A stretch of DNA of 48,178 nucleotides from Bacteroidota bacterium (GTDB lineage: Bacteria; Bacteroidota; Bacteroidia; Bacteroidales; DYOH01): positions 1 to 48,178 of the forward strand of contig JAIFMY010000042.1 of the NCBI GenBank assembly GCA_020048155.1, written 5' to 3'. The translations under genes and the position numbers were made by a program. Shown here piece by piece: positions 6,675 to 20,423 of this stretch. Numbering within the stretch: position 1 is the first letter of the stretch; every line of letters begins with the position of its first letter. Below the pieces are notes generated by a model, which made no database searches, was not told the DNA's origin, and was given only the letters and a program-made list of their open reading frames with translations.

Positions 6675-9272
6675 ATGTTTATGCCTGAACAATTGTTAGA
6701 AATTGAGTACTGGAAAAGTCTTTATGAAAATAAGGAGTGCCTTGTTGCAGTATTTTCAGATGCTTTATTGGCAAAGTTTCACAATTTAAATGAACCGGCA
6801 GAAAATATTATTTTGTCGGCTGTCTCAGATTTTATACGTCAATATGCCTATAATAAATCTGATCAGCCTGTTTCAGTGGCTTTGCCCGATGGCCGCAATG
6901 CACTTATTTCACAATTACAAACCCCACACGGAAATCTGATTGGCTATAAAGCCGTTGTTTCTGCCAGAAATAAATATCTCATAAGTGAAAGTACCGATGC
7001 TGTTAGTATAGAAACATTATCGAATCTTTATGGAAATATGCCTTACGGTTGTGCTATTTTTGTACACAAAGGTATGCCCTACGATGCCTTTCCGGTTGTT
7101 TTTGTAAACAGAATGTTGCGGAATTTGTTTGAGATTGATATTGCGGATGATGAAGAAATTGACATTTTGCAATTGATGGCAGATATCCCTGAATTTCAGA
7201 ATCATTTGCAGCTGCTTATACATGAAGGCTTGTCGCAGGATTTTTCAACAGAAGTAGATAGGCGGCAAATGCAATTTCGAATAAGTTTGTTGCCACTTGG
7301 CCACCAAAAATATGCATTACTTGTTAGCAATACCACCGCATCGTACCAGATTCTGCAATCGGTTCTGAGTACCCAGAGTTACCTCAAGCAATTATCAGAC
7401 CACATCGATTCACTTTTTTGGTTGAGTAAGTATAGTCCCAACGGCAATATCAGTTTGTTGTGGATCAATACCAAATCTGCGCATTTGCATGCCCTATGCG
7501 ATGCCAATAGCGGCAGCAAACTCATTTGGTTTTCTGAACGTGTATTTCCGACAGACATGCATATTATTCATGATGCCAATTTTGTAAGCGCACCCAATCA
7601 TCTGAACAGAAACCTGACTCTGCGATTATACGATGAGCAAGATAGGCTCAGGTGGTACTGGTTAAATACCTATGCGGTAAACGACAATACTACAGGTGAT
7701 ATACGCATAGCCGGTATAGCTACGGATATAACTCTGCGCGTAGAAGCTGAAGAAAAACTCTACAAGAGCGAAGAGAATCTGTTAGCCATGGTCAATAATT
7801 CGCCACAGGTGTATTTGCTCATAAGCATACAAGGTACTTTACTCAATTTCAATAGCTCAGCTTCGCAGTTCTTTCATAATATCTTTAATTTTAGTCTGTA
7901 CGAAAACGTATCGTTGATGACTTTGCCCGAATTTGAAGAGAAAGATGCCCTGATGGAACATTTTATGCTATGCATAAATAATGAATATCAGCATTTTAAT
8001 ATATCTTTCAAAACAGGAATAGGGATTATATGGCTCGATGTACATATGATGCCGGTATTGGGACGCAATGGGCAGCTTTATGCTATATCTCTGAGCGCTT
8101 TAGATGTAACCGAACGTTACATGTCTGAGAAAATGCTGAAAGAAGCCAAAGAGATGGCCGAACAGGCCGACAAATTGAAATCCGAATTTCTTTCGAATAT
8201 GTCGCATGAATTACGCACACCCATGAATGCCATCATTGGCTTCAGCGAGTTGCTGCGCGATGAAATGAAATCGGAAGAATATACCGAATATCTGAACATC
8301 ATACACGAATCGGGGCAGCAACTGATGGTGCTTCTAAACGATATCATAGATATCTCTAAGATAGAGGCCGGACAACTACAAATACATGAGCATTCGTTCA
8401 ATCTGAATATATTGCTATCGGATTTATACAATTTTTTTGCATCCAATCAGCTACTCAGCAACAATTCTATTGCCTTCACAGTGCACTATGCACTAAGCAA
8501 TATTGATGCACACTTTATGGGCGACGAACAACGAATCAGGCAGATAATCACCAATTTTCTGAGCAATGCTTTTAAGTTCACATCCAAAGGTTCCATCAAG
8601 CTGGGTTATACACTCACCAACCAATTTATACGCATATACGTATCAGATACCGGCCCTGGTCTTACAGCAGTGCAAGAAGGCATTATTTTTGAGCGATTCA
8701 GGCAAGCCGATGGAAGCATAACACGCAATTTTGGAGGCACCGGGCTAGGTTTGGCCATTTGCCGTGGACTGGTTGAGCTCATGCATGGCGAAATAGGAGT
8801 AAATAGTGTGTTGGGTCAAGGCTCAACCTTTTACATTTCAATCCCCCTCAAAACCGTAAACCTTTATAGAACAGATGATTTTGCAATTGAATTTGCAAAC
8901 CTTCCATATAATTGGAATGGCAAGGCCATACTTCTGCTCGATGAAGAAAAAGATAATATTTTATACATAAAAAAAATACTTACTCCCACCCAAATAGAAG
9001 TTCTCAGTGCAGTAAACGGCCATACAGCCATAGAGTTACTAAATTCTGAAAACCAGATTATGGCGGCTATTATAGATAGTAAAATGCACAACTCTAAACC
9101 CGATGAGGTGGCACGGGCTCTTACTATGGTAAGGAAAAATCTGGTTGTCATTTTACAATGCGAGAATACCGAAGTATCGGCTGATAGTAGCTTTGAATAC
9201 CATGCGCAGATAAACAAACCCGTAGACAGAAACCACCTACTGAGGCTCATAAAACTAATGGTGAGGGAGTAA
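6675..9272 (+). CDS. PAS-domain hybrid histidine kinase with a degenerate receiver
   Basis: An 865-residue cytoplasmic sensor kinase with no clear transmembrane segment. Residues ~1-360 form PAS-like sensory segments, with another PAS at ~365-485. Next come a HisKA dimerisation domain with the phospho-accepting His511 (SNMSHELRTPMNAI), and an HATPase domain with the N-box (NFLSNAFKF), DTGPG and GGTGLGLAICRG. A C-terminal receiver-like domain occupies ~740-865. The receiver keeps an acidic cluster (LLLDEEKDN), a candidate phospho-aspartate (AAIIDSKM) and the lysine (INKPV), but it lacks the LPxxDG context and the conserved Thr/Ser (VVILQC). It may therefore be a weak or non-phosphorylated receiver. 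It heads a two-gene operon with the next kinase, 19 bp downstream. Signal and target are unknown. Confidence 0.92.
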   Translation: MFMPEQLLEIEYWKSLYENKECLVAVFSDALLAKFHNLNEPAENIILSAVSDFIRQYAYNKSDQPVSVALPDGRNALISQLQTPHGNLIGYKAVVSARNKYLISESTDAVSIETLSNLYGNMPYGCAIFVHKGMPYDAFPVVFVNRMLRNLFEIDIADDEEIDILQLMADIPEFQNHLQLLIHEGLSQDFSTEVDRRQMQFRISLLPLGHQKYALLVSNTTASYQILQSVLSTQSYLKQLSDHIDSLFWLSKYSPNGNISLLWINTKSAHLHALCDANSGSKLIWFSERVFPTDMHIIHDANFVSAPNHLNRNLTLRLYDEQDRLRWYWLNTYAVNDNTTGDIRIAGIATDITLRVEAEEKLYKSEENLLAMVNNSPQVYLLISIQGTLLNFNSSASQFFHNIFNFSLYENVSLMTLPEFEEKDALMEHFMLCINNEYQHFNISFKTGIGIIWLDVHMMPVLGRNGQLYAISLSALDVTERYMSEKMLKEAKEMAEQADKLKSEFLSNMSHELRTPMNAIIGFSELLRDEMKSEEYTEYLNIIHESGQQLMVLLNDIIDISKIEAGQLQIHEHSFNLNILLSDLYNFFASNQLLSNNSIAFTVHYALSNIDAHFMGDEQRIRQIITNFLSNAFKFTSKGSIKLGYTLTNQFIRIYVSDTGPGLTAVQEGIIFERFRQADGSITRNFGGTGLGLAICRGLVELMHGEIGVNSVLGQGSTFYISIPLKTVNLYRTDDFAIEFANLPYNWNGKAILLLDEEKDNILYIKKILTPTQIEVLSAVNGHTAIELLNSENQIMAAIIDSKMHNSKPDEVARALTMVRKNLVVILQCENTEVSADSSFEYHAQINKPVDRNHLLRLIKLMVRE

Positions 9273-9291
9273 CATAATCAATCTGAAAATC

Positions 9292-12200
9292 ATGAACGTG
9301 AATAGTTTTCTTATTTCCTGCGTAAAAGATATTTTCAATAAGACCCAAGCAACCGAAAATTTGCCCATTTGGCGCGAAGAATACAAACGCTTGAGAATGT
9401 TGTATACACAGGCATTTGATTTTATAGATGCTGGTCTTGAAGGAATAGAAAGTAAAAACTTGGAGCTTAATCCGGAACAAATATTAGAAGACCTTACTTC
9501 ATTCAATCCTCATCTTCAGTTTCTTGTGGATAATGTGACTATCCCTATAGACAATGCCCCCATAGGTGTAGCCATGCTCAAAGATGGCAAGATAATGTAT
9601 AGCAACGACGCGGTAAGCGATATTTTTGGATACACCAAAGCAGAATTGCTTTCAATAGAACCGGGGGTCCTTATATCAGATGATTTTCGAGATAAAATAA
9701 ACTACATGCACGGCAATATAGGTTTTGTAGGTAGCAATAGCCCGAGTGGATTCGATGTAAAAGTTGTGGCTAAAGGAGCGATAAATAAATGGATAAATAT
9801 TTCAAGCACACAATTCATAAACAACGAGCAGAATTTCATCATCGATTTTATCAGAGATATAACCATTCGTAAAGATTTCGAACTGCGACTGCTCAATTCC
9901 GACAATCTTTATTTCAGCACCATCAATTCGTTGCGCGATTTCATTTTTGTAATCGATCGCGATTTTCGCATCCTATTGGCCAACGAAGCATATATGGGTT
10001 TTCACCGCACTATATTCGGCGACAAACCATTTATTAATGAGAATCTGTCGGATGTGAGGCCTTTTTTCGACGATAACACCTGGGAGGAGTACAATTCTGT
10101 GTTTTTGGTAGGAAAAGAACATGAATCGGATCAAAAATTTATCATAAAGGGAAAGGTATTTTACCTAAAAATAAAAAAATCGCCTGTGGTCATAAATGGA
10201 TCAGTGGTAAGGGTGATAACCATCATCATAGATATTACCAAAGATACCATAGTTAAACAGACAATGGCTCTCAATGAGCAAAAATTCAGGCAACTGGCAT
10301 ATGAGGCCACCGAAGGTATCATCATGTCTGATTTGCATGCCAAAATAGTAGATTGGAACCGTACTATGGAGCGTATCACCGGGTATACCAACGAAGAAAT
10401 GGTAGGCAAAATGTTGAATAATTTTGAACAGATGTTGCCTGACCATACACCTATAAGTACCGATTTGACAGCGTACCACCAACTCCTCAAAAATCCGGCC
10501 CCCGATGTTTTTAATGTAAAACGTGAATTCAGGCTGCAAAAGAAAAATGGCAATCTGGCAAATGTACAAATCACCCTATTCCCTATAAAAACCGATGCTG
10601 AGTATCTGCTCGGAATACTGCTCAATGATGTGACCGACATCAGACGTATAGAGCAAATGCGCGAGCAACGCCGGCAGGAAGTTGTAAAACTATCACAAGC
10701 AGCACTCGATATGATGGAAATACAGTCGCTGCATGGTACACATACATATATTGTAAACTGGTTGTCCAACAATTTGTTAGGCGCGCCAGTTTTTTATCTC
10801 AATATAGAAGAAATAAAAAGTACAGCCGAGTTTAGCGCATATACAGGCATTCAGACATCGCAACGGGAAATTCTCAACGAGGCTTTCCCTGCATGGGATA
10901 AGACTCATATATCGCTCACAGAGGAGTTTTTGATATTGCTTCAACGTGGAAAATTATTCAAACTCGAAAAAAATATTCCCGAATTTGTGCTGCAGAGCTA
11001 CAGCAATGAGGAGCTCAATATGTTTAATCACATACTTGGTACTGTAAGCATATATGGCATAGGCCTCACTTGGATTGGACAGATTTTTGGGGTGATACTA
11101 CTTCAGATCCCGGACGAAACTGCAACCGACCATACACCTGTGATAGAAGCTTTTGTGCATCAGGCAACCATAGCTGTGCGGCGCAAGATAATTGAAGCGG
11201 ATTTGGCCAAAGCCAGAACACGTGCAGAAGAAGCCGACCATATGAAATCTATGTTTCTGGCCAATATGTCGCACGAAATACGTAGCCCGCTCAATGGGAT
11301 ACTTGGGTTTACAGACCTTATGCGTCGTATGCAACTGCCCGATAAGGCGCAAAAGTTTACTCATCTGATACACCAGAATGGGAACCACTTGCTTGAGCTT
11401 ATCAACGATATTATTGATTTTTCGAAAATTGAAGCCGGACAGCTCGAAATAAACCCCGAGCAAGCTAATCTTTACGATTTGGTCACCCAAATAGATCAAA
11501 TGTTCCGTAACCAATTGTCTTCGCAAGGCATTTTAATTGAGCAGCTCAAGTTTACTGTTGTTAATGAATTGGAGGCCGGAAACTCGCAGTATATGCTCGA
11601 CTCACTGCGCTGGCGGCAGGTTATTATCAATCTGCTTAGCAATGCATTCAAGTTCACCACTGAGGGGGAAGTCAGGTTTATTGTTAAAAAACAAGAACGC
11701 GATTTGTATTTTGAGGTGTCAGATACAGGTATAGGCATTCCCCCCGAAAAACTGAAATGGATATTCGACCGTTATTCTCAAGTTGGGCCCCAAATCACCC
11801 GTCAGTATGGTGGTTCAGGCCTCGGATTGTCCATAACCAAAGGGCTGGTTTCGCTTATGGGAGGCGAGATAAAAGTATTGTCGCAAGAAGGTGCCGGCTC
11901 TGTTTTTAGCTTCAAGATTCCGGCATTGCATACACCATCGCAACCTGAACTAGAACAGGTATTAGCCGCAAGCCAACAAATAGATTTGAAAAATAAGCAT
12001 GTTTTGCTCATTGAAGACGATATCATCAGTCAGGAATATATTTTGAATATACTTGAAAACCTGAATGTGAAACTTACTATTAAAAGTTCGGCTCGAAGCA
12101 TAGATAAGTGGTTGCAAGAACTTGGCCATATCGACATTGCACTGATAGATCTTCAATTACCTGATGTCGATGGTTTTGATGTGATAAAAAAAATAAAAGA

Positions 12201-12348
12201 GTACGACGCAGCAATATATTGCATCGCACAAACAGCCTTTGCCACTGCCGAATATAAGAAAAGGTGCTTCGACGCCGGATTCAATTTTTATATTTCAAAA
12301 CCATACAAAAGCGGCCATCTGGTAGAAGCCCTCATGCAAGCAAATTAG
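9292..12348 (+). CDS. Multi-PAS hybrid histidine kinase with intact receiver
   Basis: A 1018-residue soluble hybrid kinase. In order: a helical N-terminus (1-80), three PAS domains (~85-195, ~200-320, ~328-455), and a GAF-like region (~465-630). Then come HisKA with His661 (ANMSHEIRSPLNGI), an HATPase domain (NLLSNAFKF near 780, DTGIG at 811, GGSGLGLS near 840), and a complete receiver (903-1018) with acidic residues Asp909/Asp910, phospho-acceptor Asp953 (LIDLQLPDVDG), Thr981 and Lys1003. It follows the previous kinase by 19 bp and is probably co-transcribed. The intact receiver here could complement the degenerate one in its neighbour, but no DNA-binding output or separate response regulator is nearby. 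It converges on the MORN gene with only 14 bp between them. Confidence 0.93.
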   Translation: MNVNSFLISCVKDIFNKTQATENLPIWREEYKRLRMLYTQAFDFIDAGLEGIESKNLELNPEQILEDLTSFNPHLQFLVDNVTIPIDNAPIGVAMLKDGKIMYSNDAVSDIFGYTKAELLSIEPGVLISDDFRDKINYMHGNIGFVGSNSPSGFDVKVVAKGAINKWINISSTQFINNEQNFIIDFIRDITIRKDFELRLLNSDNLYFSTINSLRDFIFVIDRDFRILLANEAYMGFHRTIFGDKPFINENLSDVRPFFDDNTWEEYNSVFLVGKEHESDQKFIIKGKVFYLKIKKSPVVINGSVVRVITIIIDITKDTIVKQTMALNEQKFRQLAYEATEGIIMSDLHAKIVDWNRTMERITGYTNEEMVGKMLNNFEQMLPDHTPISTDLTAYHQLLKNPAPDVFNVKREFRLQKKNGNLANVQITLFPIKTDAEYLLGILLNDVTDIRRIEQMREQRRQEVVKLSQAALDMMEIQSLHGTHTYIVNWLSNNLLGAPVFYLNIEEIKSTAEFSAYTGIQTSQREILNEAFPAWDKTHISLTEEFLILLQRGKLFKLEKNIPEFVLQSYSNEELNMFNHILGTVSIYGIGLTWIGQIFGVILLQIPDETATDHTPVIEAFVHQATIAVRRKIIEADLAKARTRAEEADHMKSMFLANMSHEIRSPLNGILGFTDLMRRMQLPDKAQKFTHLIHQNGNHLLELINDIIDFSKIEAGQLEINPEQANLYDLVTQIDQMFRNQLSSQGILIEQLKFTVVNELEAGNSQYMLDSLRWRQVIINLLSNAFKFTTEGEVRFIVKKQERDLYFEVSDTGIGIPPEKLKWIFDRYSQVGPQITRQYGGSGLGLSITKGLVSLMGGEIKVLSQEGAGSVFSFKIPALHTPSQPELEQVLAASQQIDLKNKHVLLIEDDIISQEYILNILENLNVKLTIKSSARSIDKWLQELGHIDIALIDLQLPDVDGFDVIKKIKEYDAAIYCIAQTAFATAEYKKRCFDAGFNFYISKPYKSGHLVEALMQAN

Positions 12349-12362
12349 ACTTGAGTATATGG

Positions 12363-14957
12363 TTATTTGAAAAACTGATTGAATATATCGTCGGTGAAAG
12401 TGGTATATACAGTCTGATGTCCTTTGCTCTGCTTTTTTACCTCATCGGCTATGAACATAAGTTTGTTTTTTTCAGCAGGTTTTAGATTGAGCAATACATT
12501 CCGAAACAAATAGTTGTGCATATATTTGCCGGAATAGCTAAAAGGCAGGTTGCTCATAAGGTAAAAAGTACCTGTGAACACTGGGGGGGCGGCAAGCAAA
12601 TAATTGTGCTCAGTCCTATAATTTACACTTTTGTAAGCAACCGATGCTTGATCTATTATTACACCCACAGTATCGGAACCCGCATGCCTGAAATCTGAAA
12701 TGATTTGGTTAAGACTAATGCCTTCAACCGAGATATCGCAAGATTTCTGTATGAGCGCAAGATTGGGAATAAAATAATTGATTGAGTCGAGATAAAATAC
12801 TGTTCCAGCAAAGTACAATATAACTTTGCCGCTATGCTTTTGCTGTTGCACCAATGCTTTGCGCAAAGTAAGCAGAAAATCAGCCCTGTCAGTTTGGTTT
12901 ACAATATTTACTTCGTATCCAGAGCCTTCAAACCATTCTATAAGTTCATCTTTCCGTTCGAGCGTCACATCAGAAGTCTGAAAAATCCAGACACTATTTT
13001 TCCTTATGGGGTTTGATTCTATTTTAACTTGAATTATTTCCGATTCGGTTTTTCCATAATCGTTGATAGCCTGAACCTGTATCAGGTTATTTTCTTCTTT
13101 AACCAAAGCAGTACATTCTATGATGATATCGAAACCGTATTCCGGATTTTTAGCAAAGTTTATCTGCATTTGATTATACACCAACTTATGATTTACATAT
13201 AATTGTATATTGTGCAACGGAGTAGACGAACGTATACCAAACTTCAGGTTTACCAATTTTTGGGTAGAACGGTAAGAAGCATCGATGGGTTTAATCCAAA
13301 GTACTTCGGGTGCCAACTGTGTAGGGGGGGTTTCGGTAATAAATACATTTTTACGGAAAAGACCTTTAAGGGTATCCTTTTGGTTTGTATACACCCCGTA
13401 TCCATCGTACATATCATCTTTCCAACTACCCAGATAAGATGCACCATTGCTCAGAAGTTGCAAACCAAAACCATTTCTATAATTATTTTTAAACATACCT
13501 TGAAAATAGTTTCCATGCTCATCAGTGTATCTTCCGAATCCATGAAAATTGCTCAGAAACCAAGCGCCGGAGTATTGCCAACCGCCAGATGAGATGTATT
13601 GTCCTGTGCCTTCGAAACAATTGCCACTAATGCAACCAAAAAAACCGTCGGTAGAAGCCACAAGTTTATGTTGTTTCCATATACCGTTCAAAATTCTTCC
13701 GTCGGGGTAGTGCATAGAACCCTCACCTTCTATAGTATCTTTTTTGAATTGTCCTTCAAATCTTTTGCCATCTGAAAAATAAAAAGTACCAATTCCATCT
13801 CGGTAATCGTCGCGGAATGGCCCCAGATATTTTTCACCATTTACGAATGTATGCAGACCAACGCCATGCTTTTTGTTGTTTCGCCAGGTTCCTTCGTATT
13901 CGTTTCCTGTATCGAAAAAGTTGTACCCCCATCCATTGCGTTTATCATCGAGCCAGAATCCTGTATATTTTTCACCCGAAACCCAAGTATATTCGCCAAA
14001 ACCACTATGGCAATTGCCGGTTTGGCAAGCGTTTTTCAAGGTATCTGCAACCAAATACTTTCCATTTACATAAAATCCTTTTTGAGAGTATCCGAAAGGG
14101 TAGGTCAATTCGCCAATTCCATGAGGCAAAAAAGCCAGCATCTCGCCGGTGTAAGTAGCACCATACAAAGGCGAATTGTTGCGGAACAACAAACTTCCGG
14201 TGCCTTTAGCGCAGTTTCCGGCAAGGCATGTATCGGCATGAAAGGCAATTACGATATCATCGAGCGTTTTTCCATTTTTCCACATATTTGTTTTTTCGCT
14301 CCCAGAAGCCATTTTATATGTACCAAGGCCATTGGGTAAGCCATTGTACCAATTTCCTACATAAGTGTCGCCATTTGGATACCACATGGTGCCAAAACCG
14401 TTGATGGTATCGTATAGCCAGCGACCATCGTATATCATACCGTTGCTAAAGATTTGTTTTCCATTTCCGTGGCGCCAGCTACCAAGCCATTCACCGTCAT
14501 ATACATCGCCATTTACCCATTTGTACAAACCTACCCCGGTACAGCAATTGCCTTGCAGGCAGCCAAACGAAGAGTTGCTTACACCCGAAGGCACATTATT
14601 GGTCCATGTAGCCGACATAAAAGAGGAGTCAGCATAAAACAGAGTTCCACTTCCGGCTTTCTGGCCATTTATCCAGTTGCCTGTATAAATTTCGCCATTG
14701 GCACCATACTCGGTACCAAGGCCCGCCCTGGTTCCTTTTTCAAATAACCCTATATAAATGAGTTTGTTGTCCTTTTTGAGGAGGCCTTTGCCCTCGGGCA
14801 TATTTCCTGCAAAATTGCCTTCGTAAGTATTTCCATCAGCAAGTTTAGCTATGCCATACCCATCTGCACAATTTCCGGAGATACACTGGATTTTGCTTTG
14901 GGCCGAAGCGAAGAAAGGAAAAAGAATACAAGCCAATACGAATAAATAACGGTACAT
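12363..14957 (-). CDS. Secreted MORN-repeat protein with a C-terminal caspase-like domain lacking the catalytic dyad
   Basis: An 864-residue exported protein with a signal peptide (MYRYLFVLACILFPFFASAQ). Residues ~25-535 are about twenty MORN-type repeats (YEGxWxxGxxxGxGxY). They are arranged in five blocks, each opened by a CxxGNC motif at residues 25-30, 133-138, 244-249, 311-316 and 442-447. A beta-sandwich-like linker (~548-650) follows. The C-terminus (~653-864) resembles the peptidase C14 caspase fold: the strand ILYFAG at 713-718 is where caspases read ...GHG, and VGVIIDQAS at 764-772 is where they read DAC. The histidine is replaced by Thr719 and the cysteine by Ala771, so cysteine protease activity is unlikely. 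A TATCTTTG -7 box (14976-14983, minus strand) lies 18 bp upstream of the start. Function unknown; a scaffold or binding role is more plausible. Confidence 0.85.
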   Translation of the reverse strand: MYRYLFVLACILFPFFASAQSKIQCISGNCADGYGIAKLADGNTYEGNFAGNMPEGKGLLKKDNKLIYIGLFEKGTRAGLGTEYGANGEIYTGNWINGQKAGSGTLFYADSSFMSATWTNNVPSGVSNSSFGCLQGNCCTGVGLYKWVNGDVYDGEWLGSWRHGNGKQIFSNGMIYDGRWLYDTINGFGTMWYPNGDTYVGNWYNGLPNGLGTYKMASGSEKTNMWKNGKTLDDIVIAFHADTCLAGNCAKGTGSLLFRNNSPLYGATYTGEMLAFLPHGIGELTYPFGYSQKGFYVNGKYLVADTLKNACQTGNCHSGFGEYTWVSGEKYTGFWLDDKRNGWGYNFFDTGNEYEGTWRNNKKHGVGLHTFVNGEKYLGPFRDDYRDGIGTFYFSDGKRFEGQFKKDTIEGEGSMHYPDGRILNGIWKQHKLVASTDGFFGCISGNCFEGTGQYISSGGWQYSGAWFLSNFHGFGRYTDEHGNYFQGMFKNNYRNGFGLQLLSNGASYLGSWKDDMYDGYGVYTNQKDTLKGLFRKNVFITETPPTQLAPEVLWIKPIDASYRSTQKLVNLKFGIRSSTPLHNIQLYVNHKLVYNQMQINFAKNPEYGFDIIIECTALVKEENNLIQVQAINDYGKTESEIIQVKIESNPIRKNSVWIFQTSDVTLERKDELIEWFEGSGYEVNIVNQTDRADFLLTLRKALVQQQKHSGKVILYFAGTVFYLDSINYFIPNLALIQKSCDISVEGISLNQIISDFRHAGSDTVGVIIDQASVAYKSVNYRTEHNYLLAAPPVFTGTFYLMSNLPFSYSGKYMHNYLFRNVLLNLKPAEKNKLMFIADEVKKQSKGHQTVYTTFTDDIFNQFFK

Positions 14958-17921: not shown

Positions 17922-20423
17922 TCAGGAAATCATGATGTCGTTGTTTGGATTGAGATAAAAATCAATCATATGCATCAATTGTTTCTCTGAAAGAGGTTTG
18001 GCCATATAGTCATTACACCCATAGTCTTTTACCCTTTTTACATCATTTTCCATTGCATTTGCTGTAAGTGCAATGATGGGTTTGTCGAAACCCTTGTTGC
18101 GCAATTCGCGGGTAGCTTCCAATCCATTTTTTATTGGCAATTGTATATCCATCAGTACTATATCATATTTGTTGCTAAGCGCCATATCTACAGCAAGTTG
18201 TCCATTAATAGCATGATCCAGTTTTACCTGAGTAGGTTTTAAAAGCTCATAAATGAAATAATAATTGAGTTGGTCATCTTCTACCACCAATATCTTCTTA
18301 GTTTTCCAATTGAAACTTGTCGATAATCTGGAAGGACCCGAAGAACTGTATCCGGATTGTTTTTCTTCTTCAATGGGCAAACTCAGAATAAATTCAGAGC
18401 CTACATTTGGTTCCGATACCACACTCAGTTTTCCGCCCAGAAGTTCGGCATAACCGTAAGAGATGGTAAGCCCTAAGCCGGTACCTCCAAATTTGCGGGT
18501 TGCACTTTCGTCGCCTTGTCTGAAACGCTGAAAAATAATGGGCAATTTTTCCTGTGTAATGCCAATGCCCGTATCGCGCACATAGAAAATGACATTTTCT
18601 CCTTTCTGTATCTTGTAACCAATAGTAATGCTTCCATCAAAAGTAAATTTTGAAGCATTAGAAAGAAGGTGCTTCAGTATGGTCATGAGCTTTTCCCTAT
18701 CGGTGGCTATTTTTCGAATGGGTGTATTGGTATCTATATTTGTAAATACCCTGATATTCATACGCTCAGTGTTTTGGAGGCGTTCAGTTACATAATCTCG
18801 CGATTCGTCTATGAGTTGAATGAGATCCACCTCTGAGTATTCTATTTTCACCTGACTTGCTTGTAGTTTACTGGCTTCTACTATATCGGTTACTATGGCA
18901 AGTAGTTGTCTTGTACTCTCGGTGATTACGTTCAGGTATTTGTACCTCACATCGTCGGTCATGTGCCGCTCTTTAAGCAACTCGCTGAAACCCAAAATCC
19001 CATTCATGGGTGTTCGTATTTCGTGGGAAATATTGGCCAGAAAAGCAGACTTAAGCCTATCAGAGTCTTCTGCGCGTTTGAGTGCAGTTTCAAGTTGTTG
19101 GGTGCGTTCAGCTACAATGGTTTCTAGGTGTTGACGGTATTTATTGAGTTCTTCTTCAACTTTTTTACGTTCAGTGATGTCTCTTATTACACTTATTATA
19201 CCCCGGCTTCCATCGAAATCGATATTTGTAAGGTTTACTTCCACAGGTATAAGTATATTGTTCTTTGTTTTGATCCGAGCTTCAAAAATGATGCTTTTGT
19301 TGTAACCACTGGTTTCGGGAATAAAGAAATTGGCTTCGGTGAAAATTTCGTGAATAGATTTTTCAAGAATTTCTTCTTTGTTGTATTCTAGTAAGTTAAG
19401 GGCTTCGTGGTTGGTTTCTATTATTTTAGAACTTGATGTAATAATAAGAGCATCAGAAATATGTTCGAAAAGAGTTCTGAACTTAGATTCACTTTGCTTA
19501 AGAGCAACTTCAGCTTGCATTCGTTCGTTTACCTCACGGCTGAGCAATTCGTTTTTGGCATATAATTCTTCGTTTGTTGCTTCTATTTCCTCGTTCGTTG
19601 TTTTTAGAACTTCGTTTATTCGCAAAACTTCCTCAGCTCGTTCCTTTACTTTGTCTTCAAGATTTAGCCGATATAATGTAAGTTCTTCTTCAGCTTTCTT
19701 TCGGTCAGTTATATCCTGAAAGACCAATTGGGTAGCAGGTTTTCCGTTGTAGAAAATTTTTGAAATGGCTACTTCAGCATCAATCACTTCACCTTTTAGA
19801 GTAATAAGTTTTTCTTGAGCTGCTTCCGAAAATATTTCATCTCCGCTATATAAACTCTGCATGCGGCCTTTTACGAATTCCAGATAATCATGATGCACAA
19901 ATTCCAGTACACTTTTGCCAATGAAATCAGATTCTGAGTTTCCTCCAAGTATACGAATTGCGAATTTATTAATGAGTACTATCTGGCCTGCCTGATGAAC
20001 CCCAATGGCAATAGGCGATTCATCTATCAATTGTTTATACCTGTTTTTGGCATCACGTAACTCTTTCTGTATGAGTTCAATTTCAATTGCCTGACTCTGA
20101 AACACACTTATTTGTTGTCGGATTTCGTTGTTAGCACTCAGTAGCTTATCTTCAACCTTTACTTTTTTATTCAACATTTGTCTGAAAAGGTAGATACCTG
20201 ATAAGACCAAGAAAGAGGTTATGAATGGATAGTAATTGCTAAGAGAAGTGTGCCAATGGGCACCAGCAAAAAGCGATAATACCTCTAATACAATAAGCAA
20301 GCTTATGGCCACAAGAAACGCAAAATAATTTGCTTTAGTACCCACGTGTTTATACATGTTTCGCAGTAAAAACAGCGAAAAGATGTAAAATATGAGCGTA
20401 AAAATATGGATAACCAAATGCAT
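17922..20423 (-). CDS. Membrane-anchored PAS hybrid histidine kinase
   Basis: An 833-residue sensor. Three hydrophobic segments in residues 1-82 form an N-terminal membrane anchor with little periplasmic sequence. A coiled coil (~85-130), a PAS domain (~128-245), a second long coiled coil with repeated NEE/ATNEEL motifs (~246-310) and a second PAS (~310-425) follow. The kinase core has HisKA His467 (ANISHEIRTPMNGI), then HATPase with DTGIGI and GGTGLGLTISYG. The C-terminal receiver (~710-833) is intact: VVEDD, phospho-acceptor in LMDIQLP, LTANA and AKPLS. The input is probably cytoplasmic or membrane-borne. No partner regulator is adjacent. It lies 128 bp downstream of the PQQ-like propeller gene on the same strand; that gap shows no clear promoter or terminator. 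Confidence 0.93.
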   Translation of the reverse strand: MHLVIHIFTLIFYIFSLFLLRNMYKHVGTKANYFAFLVAISLLIVLEVLSLFAGAHWHTSLSNYYPFITSFLVLSGIYLFRQMLNKKVKVEDKLLSANNEIRQQISVFQSQAIEIELIQKELRDAKNRYKQLIDESPIAIGVHQAGQIVLINKFAIRILGGNSESDFIGKSVLEFVHHDYLEFVKGRMQSLYSGDEIFSEAAQEKLITLKGEVIDAEVAISKIFYNGKPATQLVFQDITDRKKAEEELTLYRLNLEDKVKERAEEVLRINEVLKTTNEEIEATNEELYAKNELLSREVNERMQAEVALKQSESKFRTLFEHISDALIITSSSKIIETNHEALNLLEYNKEEILEKSIHEIFTEANFFIPETSGYNKSIIFEARIKTKNNILIPVEVNLTNIDFDGSRGIISVIRDITERKKVEEELNKYRQHLETIVAERTQQLETALKRAEDSDRLKSAFLANISHEIRTPMNGILGFSELLKERHMTDDVRYKYLNVITESTRQLLAIVTDIVEASKLQASQVKIEYSEVDLIQLIDESRDYVTERLQNTERMNIRVFTNIDTNTPIRKIATDREKLMTILKHLLSNASKFTFDGSITIGYKIQKGENVIFYVRDTGIGITQEKLPIIFQRFRQGDESATRKFGGTGLGLTISYGYAELLGGKLSVVSEPNVGSEFILSLPIEEEKQSGYSSSGPSRLSTSFNWKTKKILVVEDDQLNYYFIYELLKPTQVKLDHAINGQLAVDMALSNKYDIVLMDIQLPIKNGLEATRELRNKGFDKPIIALTANAMENDVKRVKDYGCNDYMAKPLSEKQLMHMIDFYLNPNNDIMIS

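Follow-up and report, generated by a model that had tools for sequence, protein, structure and literature searches.

Organization of the locus

The window, that is the whole analyzed stretch of 48,178 nucleotides from a Bacteroidales genome (G000), contains a reading frame for a protein of 864 amino acids with an N-terminal MORN region, an Ig-like domain and a C-terminal caspase-like domain. The features of this gene and of its upstream neighbor are listed below; all of them are located on the minus strand.

12363-14957, minus strand: gene of the secreted MORN-Ig-pseudocaspase, 864 aa (open reading frame and translation, no internal stops)
14898-14957, minus strand: putative N-terminal signal peptide, residues 1-20, MYRYLFVLACILFPFFASAQ (sequence by eye; helix 2-16 in the model)
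13323-14897, minus strand: MORN region, residues 21-545 (PF02493, E 3.3e-41, 10 stretches; strands in the model)
13014-13322, minus strand: Ig-like beta domain, residues 546-648 (alignment to the Ig-like region of the paralogue L001; beta strands in the model)
12366-13013, minus strand: pseudo-caspase (C14-like) domain, residues 649-864 (homology to L001, PF00656 in the orthologues, Foldseek match to MALT1)
12801-12803, minus strand: Thr719 at the position of the catalytic His (alignment to live homologues)
12645-12647, minus strand: Ala771 at the position of the catalytic Cys (alignment to live homologues)
12651-12653, minus strand: Asp769, a retained Asp of the S1-pocket type (Asp in 63 of 63 live and 4 of 4 dead sequences; pocket assigned by analogy with TbMC2 Asp211, PMC6426788)
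15156-15575, minus strand: upstream gene of 139 aa (no Pfam or NCBIfam match; 45% identity to the gene beside the G001 orthologue)

Sequences that keep the catalytic His and Cys are called live here, and those in which they are replaced are called dead. Orthologues of nearly equal length are present in G001 and G002, so that the dead gene was found in all three genomes examined of this GTDB family. The gene L001 (683 aa, G000:C136) is a live relative in the genome of the window and combines MORN repeats with a full PF00656 domain.

Pfam identified 10 individual MORN repeats, and about 42 strands can be counted in the full-length model, corresponding to about 21 beta-hairpins, which agrees with the roughly twenty repeats counted in the first-pass annotation. 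A CxxGNC motif opens each of five MORN blocks (Cys 25/30, 133/138, 244/249, 311/316 and 442/447). The Ig-like domain between the MORN region and the caspase domain was absent from that annotation; the corresponding region of L001 matches PF17957 (Big_7) below the threshold, with 17.1 bits. The full-length model reached a pLDDT of 71 and a pTM of 0.28, and because of this low pTM the domain arrangement in it is unreliable. Searches of the window protein for a type IX secretion C-terminal domain (CHU_C or Por-type) yielded no Pfam match up to E 1, and PADLOC and NCBIfam searches with the dead protein gave no matches. Export, as initially proposed, is consistent with the apparent signal peptide recognized by eye at the N-terminus, and by its architecture the protein belongs to a secreted MORN-Ig-C14 family of the Bacteroidales.

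The C-terminal domain has a caspase fold

The Pfam profile PF00656 failed to reach the window protein itself, for which Pfam reported MORN repeats without a caspase domain. Both orthologues exceed the cut-off of this profile (28.6 and 23.0 bits, cut-off 21.4 bits), and BLASTP aligned the C-terminus of the window protein with the live paralogue L001 at 24% identity over 269 aa (E 1e-14). An AlphaFold model of residues 545-864, based on 27 relatives from genome contigs, showed a pLDDT of 74.8 and a pTM of 0.59. Using this model, Foldseek returned caspase domains of MALT1 as the top matches (E 7.9e-8); the same list also includes unrelated chitinases and dextranases with low TM-scores, and the model of the caspase domain is poorly predicted past residue 771. 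A profile of the dead sequences compared by sequence with solved structures gave no convincing caspase match. Taken together, the alignment to L001, the PF00656 matches of the orthologues and the Foldseek result place the domain in the caspase fold of peptidase family C14, as the first-pass annotation had assumed.

The paracaspase MALT1 (PDB 8v4x, 3v4o, 4i1p) is the nearest solved fold according to Foldseek and, for the live family, also according to a sequence profile. MALT1 likewise joins Ig and caspase domains but, unlike the window protein, it is active, eukaryotic and intracellular and contains no MORN repeats.

Loss of the catalytic dyad

The window motifs VILYFAG-T-VFYLD (T719) and VGVIIDQ-A-SVAYK (A771) align with the L001 motifs YFAGHGMQLD, containing the catalytic His, and VILDACRDN, containing the catalytic Cys. 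The two columns are occupied by H and C in 63 of 63 aligned live homologues, which confirmed the earlier claim that both catalytic residues are lost. The replacements are T/A in the window, L/Q in G001, L/S in G002 and Y/F in G058, a genome of another family.

The exchanges extend beyond the dyad. The Asp of the NPxNDA motif is present in all live sequences and gone from all four dead ones, and the same holds for the R and P following the Cys (positions 772 and 775), which are invariant in the live proteins. Conservation reaches 90% or more in 74 columns of the alignment of the 63 live homologues. Of these columns, 24 are kept in the window, 32 each in G001 and G002, and 41 in G058. By analogy, only one of the two S1-pocket Asp residues for a basic P1 would remain, since each of the four dead sequences lacks the Asp of the NDA motif and keeps Asp769. 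The acidic specificity pocket, which is typical but not defining for pseudo-orthocaspases in PMC6426788, would then not be retained. Judged from the alignment, the window protein lacks the His-Cys dyad of family C14. It is a pseudo-orthocaspase in the usage of PMC6426788, where the term denotes a p20-like domain in which at least one residue of the dyad is replaced.

An active enzyme could in principle use a shifted or different catalytic pair, and the window domain does hold C740 and five His. The domain of G001, however, contains neither Cys nor His and that of G002 no Cys, and a shifted dyad was rejected for the lineage on these grounds. Furthermore, the replacements differ among the orthologues (T/A, L/Q, L/S) and therefore there is no conserved substitute residue. 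We consider an active enzyme of this kind highly improbable.

Pseudo-caspases had been regarded as little described in bacteria in the first-pass annotation, but 858 pseudo-orthocaspases are documented among 9,994 bacterial orthocaspases, including 10 of 1078 in Bacteroidetes (PMC6426788). Dyad substitutions were also reported in an earlier survey (PMC3501461), and deletion of SyOC led to a higher oxidative-stress tolerance in Synechocystis (PMC7889975). The dead lineage resembles these proteins in its p20-like caspase fold, the substituted dyad and the frames kept open during evolution. The published pseudo-orthocaspases are mainly alphaproteobacterial and cyanobacterial, and the cyanobacterial ones commonly show Y/S or Y/N at the dyad positions, with both S1 Asp residues retained (PMC6426788), whereas the dead lineage carries T/A, L/Q or L/S, has lost one S1 Asp and is apparently exported on a MORN ladder. 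A literature search for bacterial MORN proteins with a caspase or C14 domain found no relevant description.

Distribution of the dead lineage

The orthologues in G001 and G002 are 33-35% identical to the window protein across about 840-850 aa. A profile search in 393 genomes of the order recovered the three family members with more than 500 bits and all others with less than 165 bits. In 395 genomes of the class only one match was found besides the own genome, a live sequence from another family, and viral contigs contained no relatives. The contig scan used a live-only profile, as a mixed live/dead profile gave no usable pattern, and further dead relatives are for this reason beyond its reach. 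The C14 matches with readable sites showed nearly always H and C; the exceptions are the MORN pseudo-caspase of G058 (Y/F; 830-codon frame, L157 57-2546, minus strand) and one non-MORN protein each in G002 and G000. The latter two are C14-like proteins with Tyr/Leu at the dyad positions (L055, G002:C226) and with Gln for the catalytic His and a retained Cys (L003 904-2295, minus strand). In divergent orientation to the G058 gene lies the gene of a WD40-C14 protein of 1301 residues (L157 2816-6718, plus strand).

A first tree joined the family lineage and G058 with a support of 96/88, which was flagged as long branches meeting; after removal of the family lineage G058 shifted, weakly, beside a live sequence. 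The GTDB family of G058 is represented by one genome. The loss of the dyad is a property of a lineage and not of a single genome.

Conservation is inverted between the domains

In live pairs the caspase domain is the most conserved part, with 63-69% identity compared with 42-51% for MORN and 36-51% for Ig. In the dead lineage it is the least conserved one: the window protein and its G001 counterpart share 41% in the MORN region, 34% in the Ig-like domain and 23% in the caspase domain (ranges for G001 and G002: 38-41%, 27-34% and 22-23%). Constraint has shifted between the parts of the protein. The corresponding identities of G001 and G002 to each other are 62%, 53% and 53%. The dN of this pair is 0.29-0.40; dS is saturated, and for this reason we do not claim a dN/dS ratio.

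The faster evolution of the caspase domain, together with the retention of only 24 of the 74 live-conserved positions in the window, also fits plain relaxation, in which the domain would be a functionless, slowly degrading vestige and the MORN ladder alone would matter. However, the full-length frames have stayed open in all three genomes despite about 22-23% caspase identity between the window and the others, the predicted core fold is retained, and the domains of G001 and G002 are still 53% identical. The open frames and the retained predicted fold suggest purifying selection on the dead domain, and we regard a mere vestige as rather unlikely.

Live relatives, papain-like partner and gene neighborhood

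The live proteins with signal peptide, CxxGNC-MORN blocks, Ig-like domain and C14 domain (L001 and many MAG loci among L117-L149) are homologous to the dead protein over the whole length and are widespread in Bacteroidales. The exported MORN-caspase setting is therefore not unusual, contrary to what the first-pass annotation had supposed. Unlike the dead proteins they keep His, Cys and the NDA Asp, have the caspase as the most conserved part, and in most cases are followed by a papain-like C1-DUF4384 gene. This gene encodes a papain-family protein that also contains DUF4384 and begins like a signal peptide, and it is the usual downstream neighbor on the same strand; the copy in the genome of the window matches PF00112 (E 1.5e-13) and PF14326 (E 2.3e-8). 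One such pair is located at L005 6581-7984, which is the papain-like neighbor of L001, and 8186-10246, and the arrangement occurs in about a dozen GTDB families, with further loci at L117, L119, L121, L132, L140-L146 and L149.

A papain-like gene lies downstream of 29 of 39 live MORN genes and of none of three dead ones, counting genes with at least 900 bases visible downstream or a match found, with G058 excluded by a contig end; the missing neighbor counts as a single event because there are few dead sequences and three of the four form one lineage. In the window the downstream neighbor is a convergent histidine kinase gene (9292-12348), whose end and the stop of the dead gene are 14 bases apart. 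Three hybrid histidine kinase genes lie near the dead gene (6675-9272, 9292-12348 and 17922-20423). The gene downstream of the orthologues resembles CHU_C type IX secretion proteins, over the cut-off in G001 and just under it in G002. The synteny of the 139-aa upstream gene with the orthologue holds in G001.

G000 carries the dead gene as well as the live L001 with its papain-like partner, and the shared architecture would suit a decoy or regulator that binds the substrates of L001 or pairs with it in a cFLIP-like or dominant-negative manner. Against this, G001 (98% complete) and G002 (78% complete) keep the dead gene and show no live MORN-C14; matches to MORN and C14 co-occur in them solely on the contig of the dead gene. 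The dead gene therefore is independent of the live pair. The best matches to the papain partner in G001, G002 and G058 are partial, about 35% identical, and correspond to a longer paralogue of a type that G000 possesses too. With one S1 Asp lost, the pocket is also less likely to capture substrates. Further C14 proteins of these genomes could still act as partners, and we judge a decoy role unlikely, if marginally less so than a vestige.

A proposed change from protease to structural protein

Pseudo-orthocaspases are already on record for bacteria, and Bacteroidales commonly encode secreted MORN-caspases; what is unusual is a dead lineage within that family. The identity of the window protein as a pseudo-orthocaspase inside the secreted MORN-Ig-C14 family is well supported. 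A dead domain amid many relatives with intact catalytic residues suggests the conversion of a protease into a structural or binding part without cutting activity. For the function we infer, with a probability of roughly 60%, binding or scaffolding in the envelope without proteolysis; the location and the order of events are likewise inferred.

The protein would be exported via Sec. It would fold into a long MORN beta-ladder, probably braced by disulphides, followed by the Ig-like domain and a caspase fold incapable of cleavage. It may act in the periplasm or on the cell surface. There the function would lie mainly in the MORN ladder, and the caspase fold would persist as an end domain that serves structure or protein binding. 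Its ancestors were presumably secreted MORN-Ig-C14 proteases of the live type from Bacteroidales. The genes of that type are usually followed by the gene of a secreted papain-like protease, and in the dead lineage both the active site and this neighbor are missing. More tentatively, and with considerable doubt, one could envisage a conserved exported pseudo-caspase lineage that went from protease to envelope scaffold by loss of the dyad, one S1 Asp and the papain gene, with selection moved to the MORN region, possibly more than once in Bacteroidales.

Secreted MORN-caspases are apparently widespread in uncultured Bacteroidales, and their frequent pairing with a papain-like gene suggests an extracytoplasmic cascade of two proteases. 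A natural dead branch and a live paralogue in one genome offer a direct route to the question of what role the caspase fold has besides cutting.
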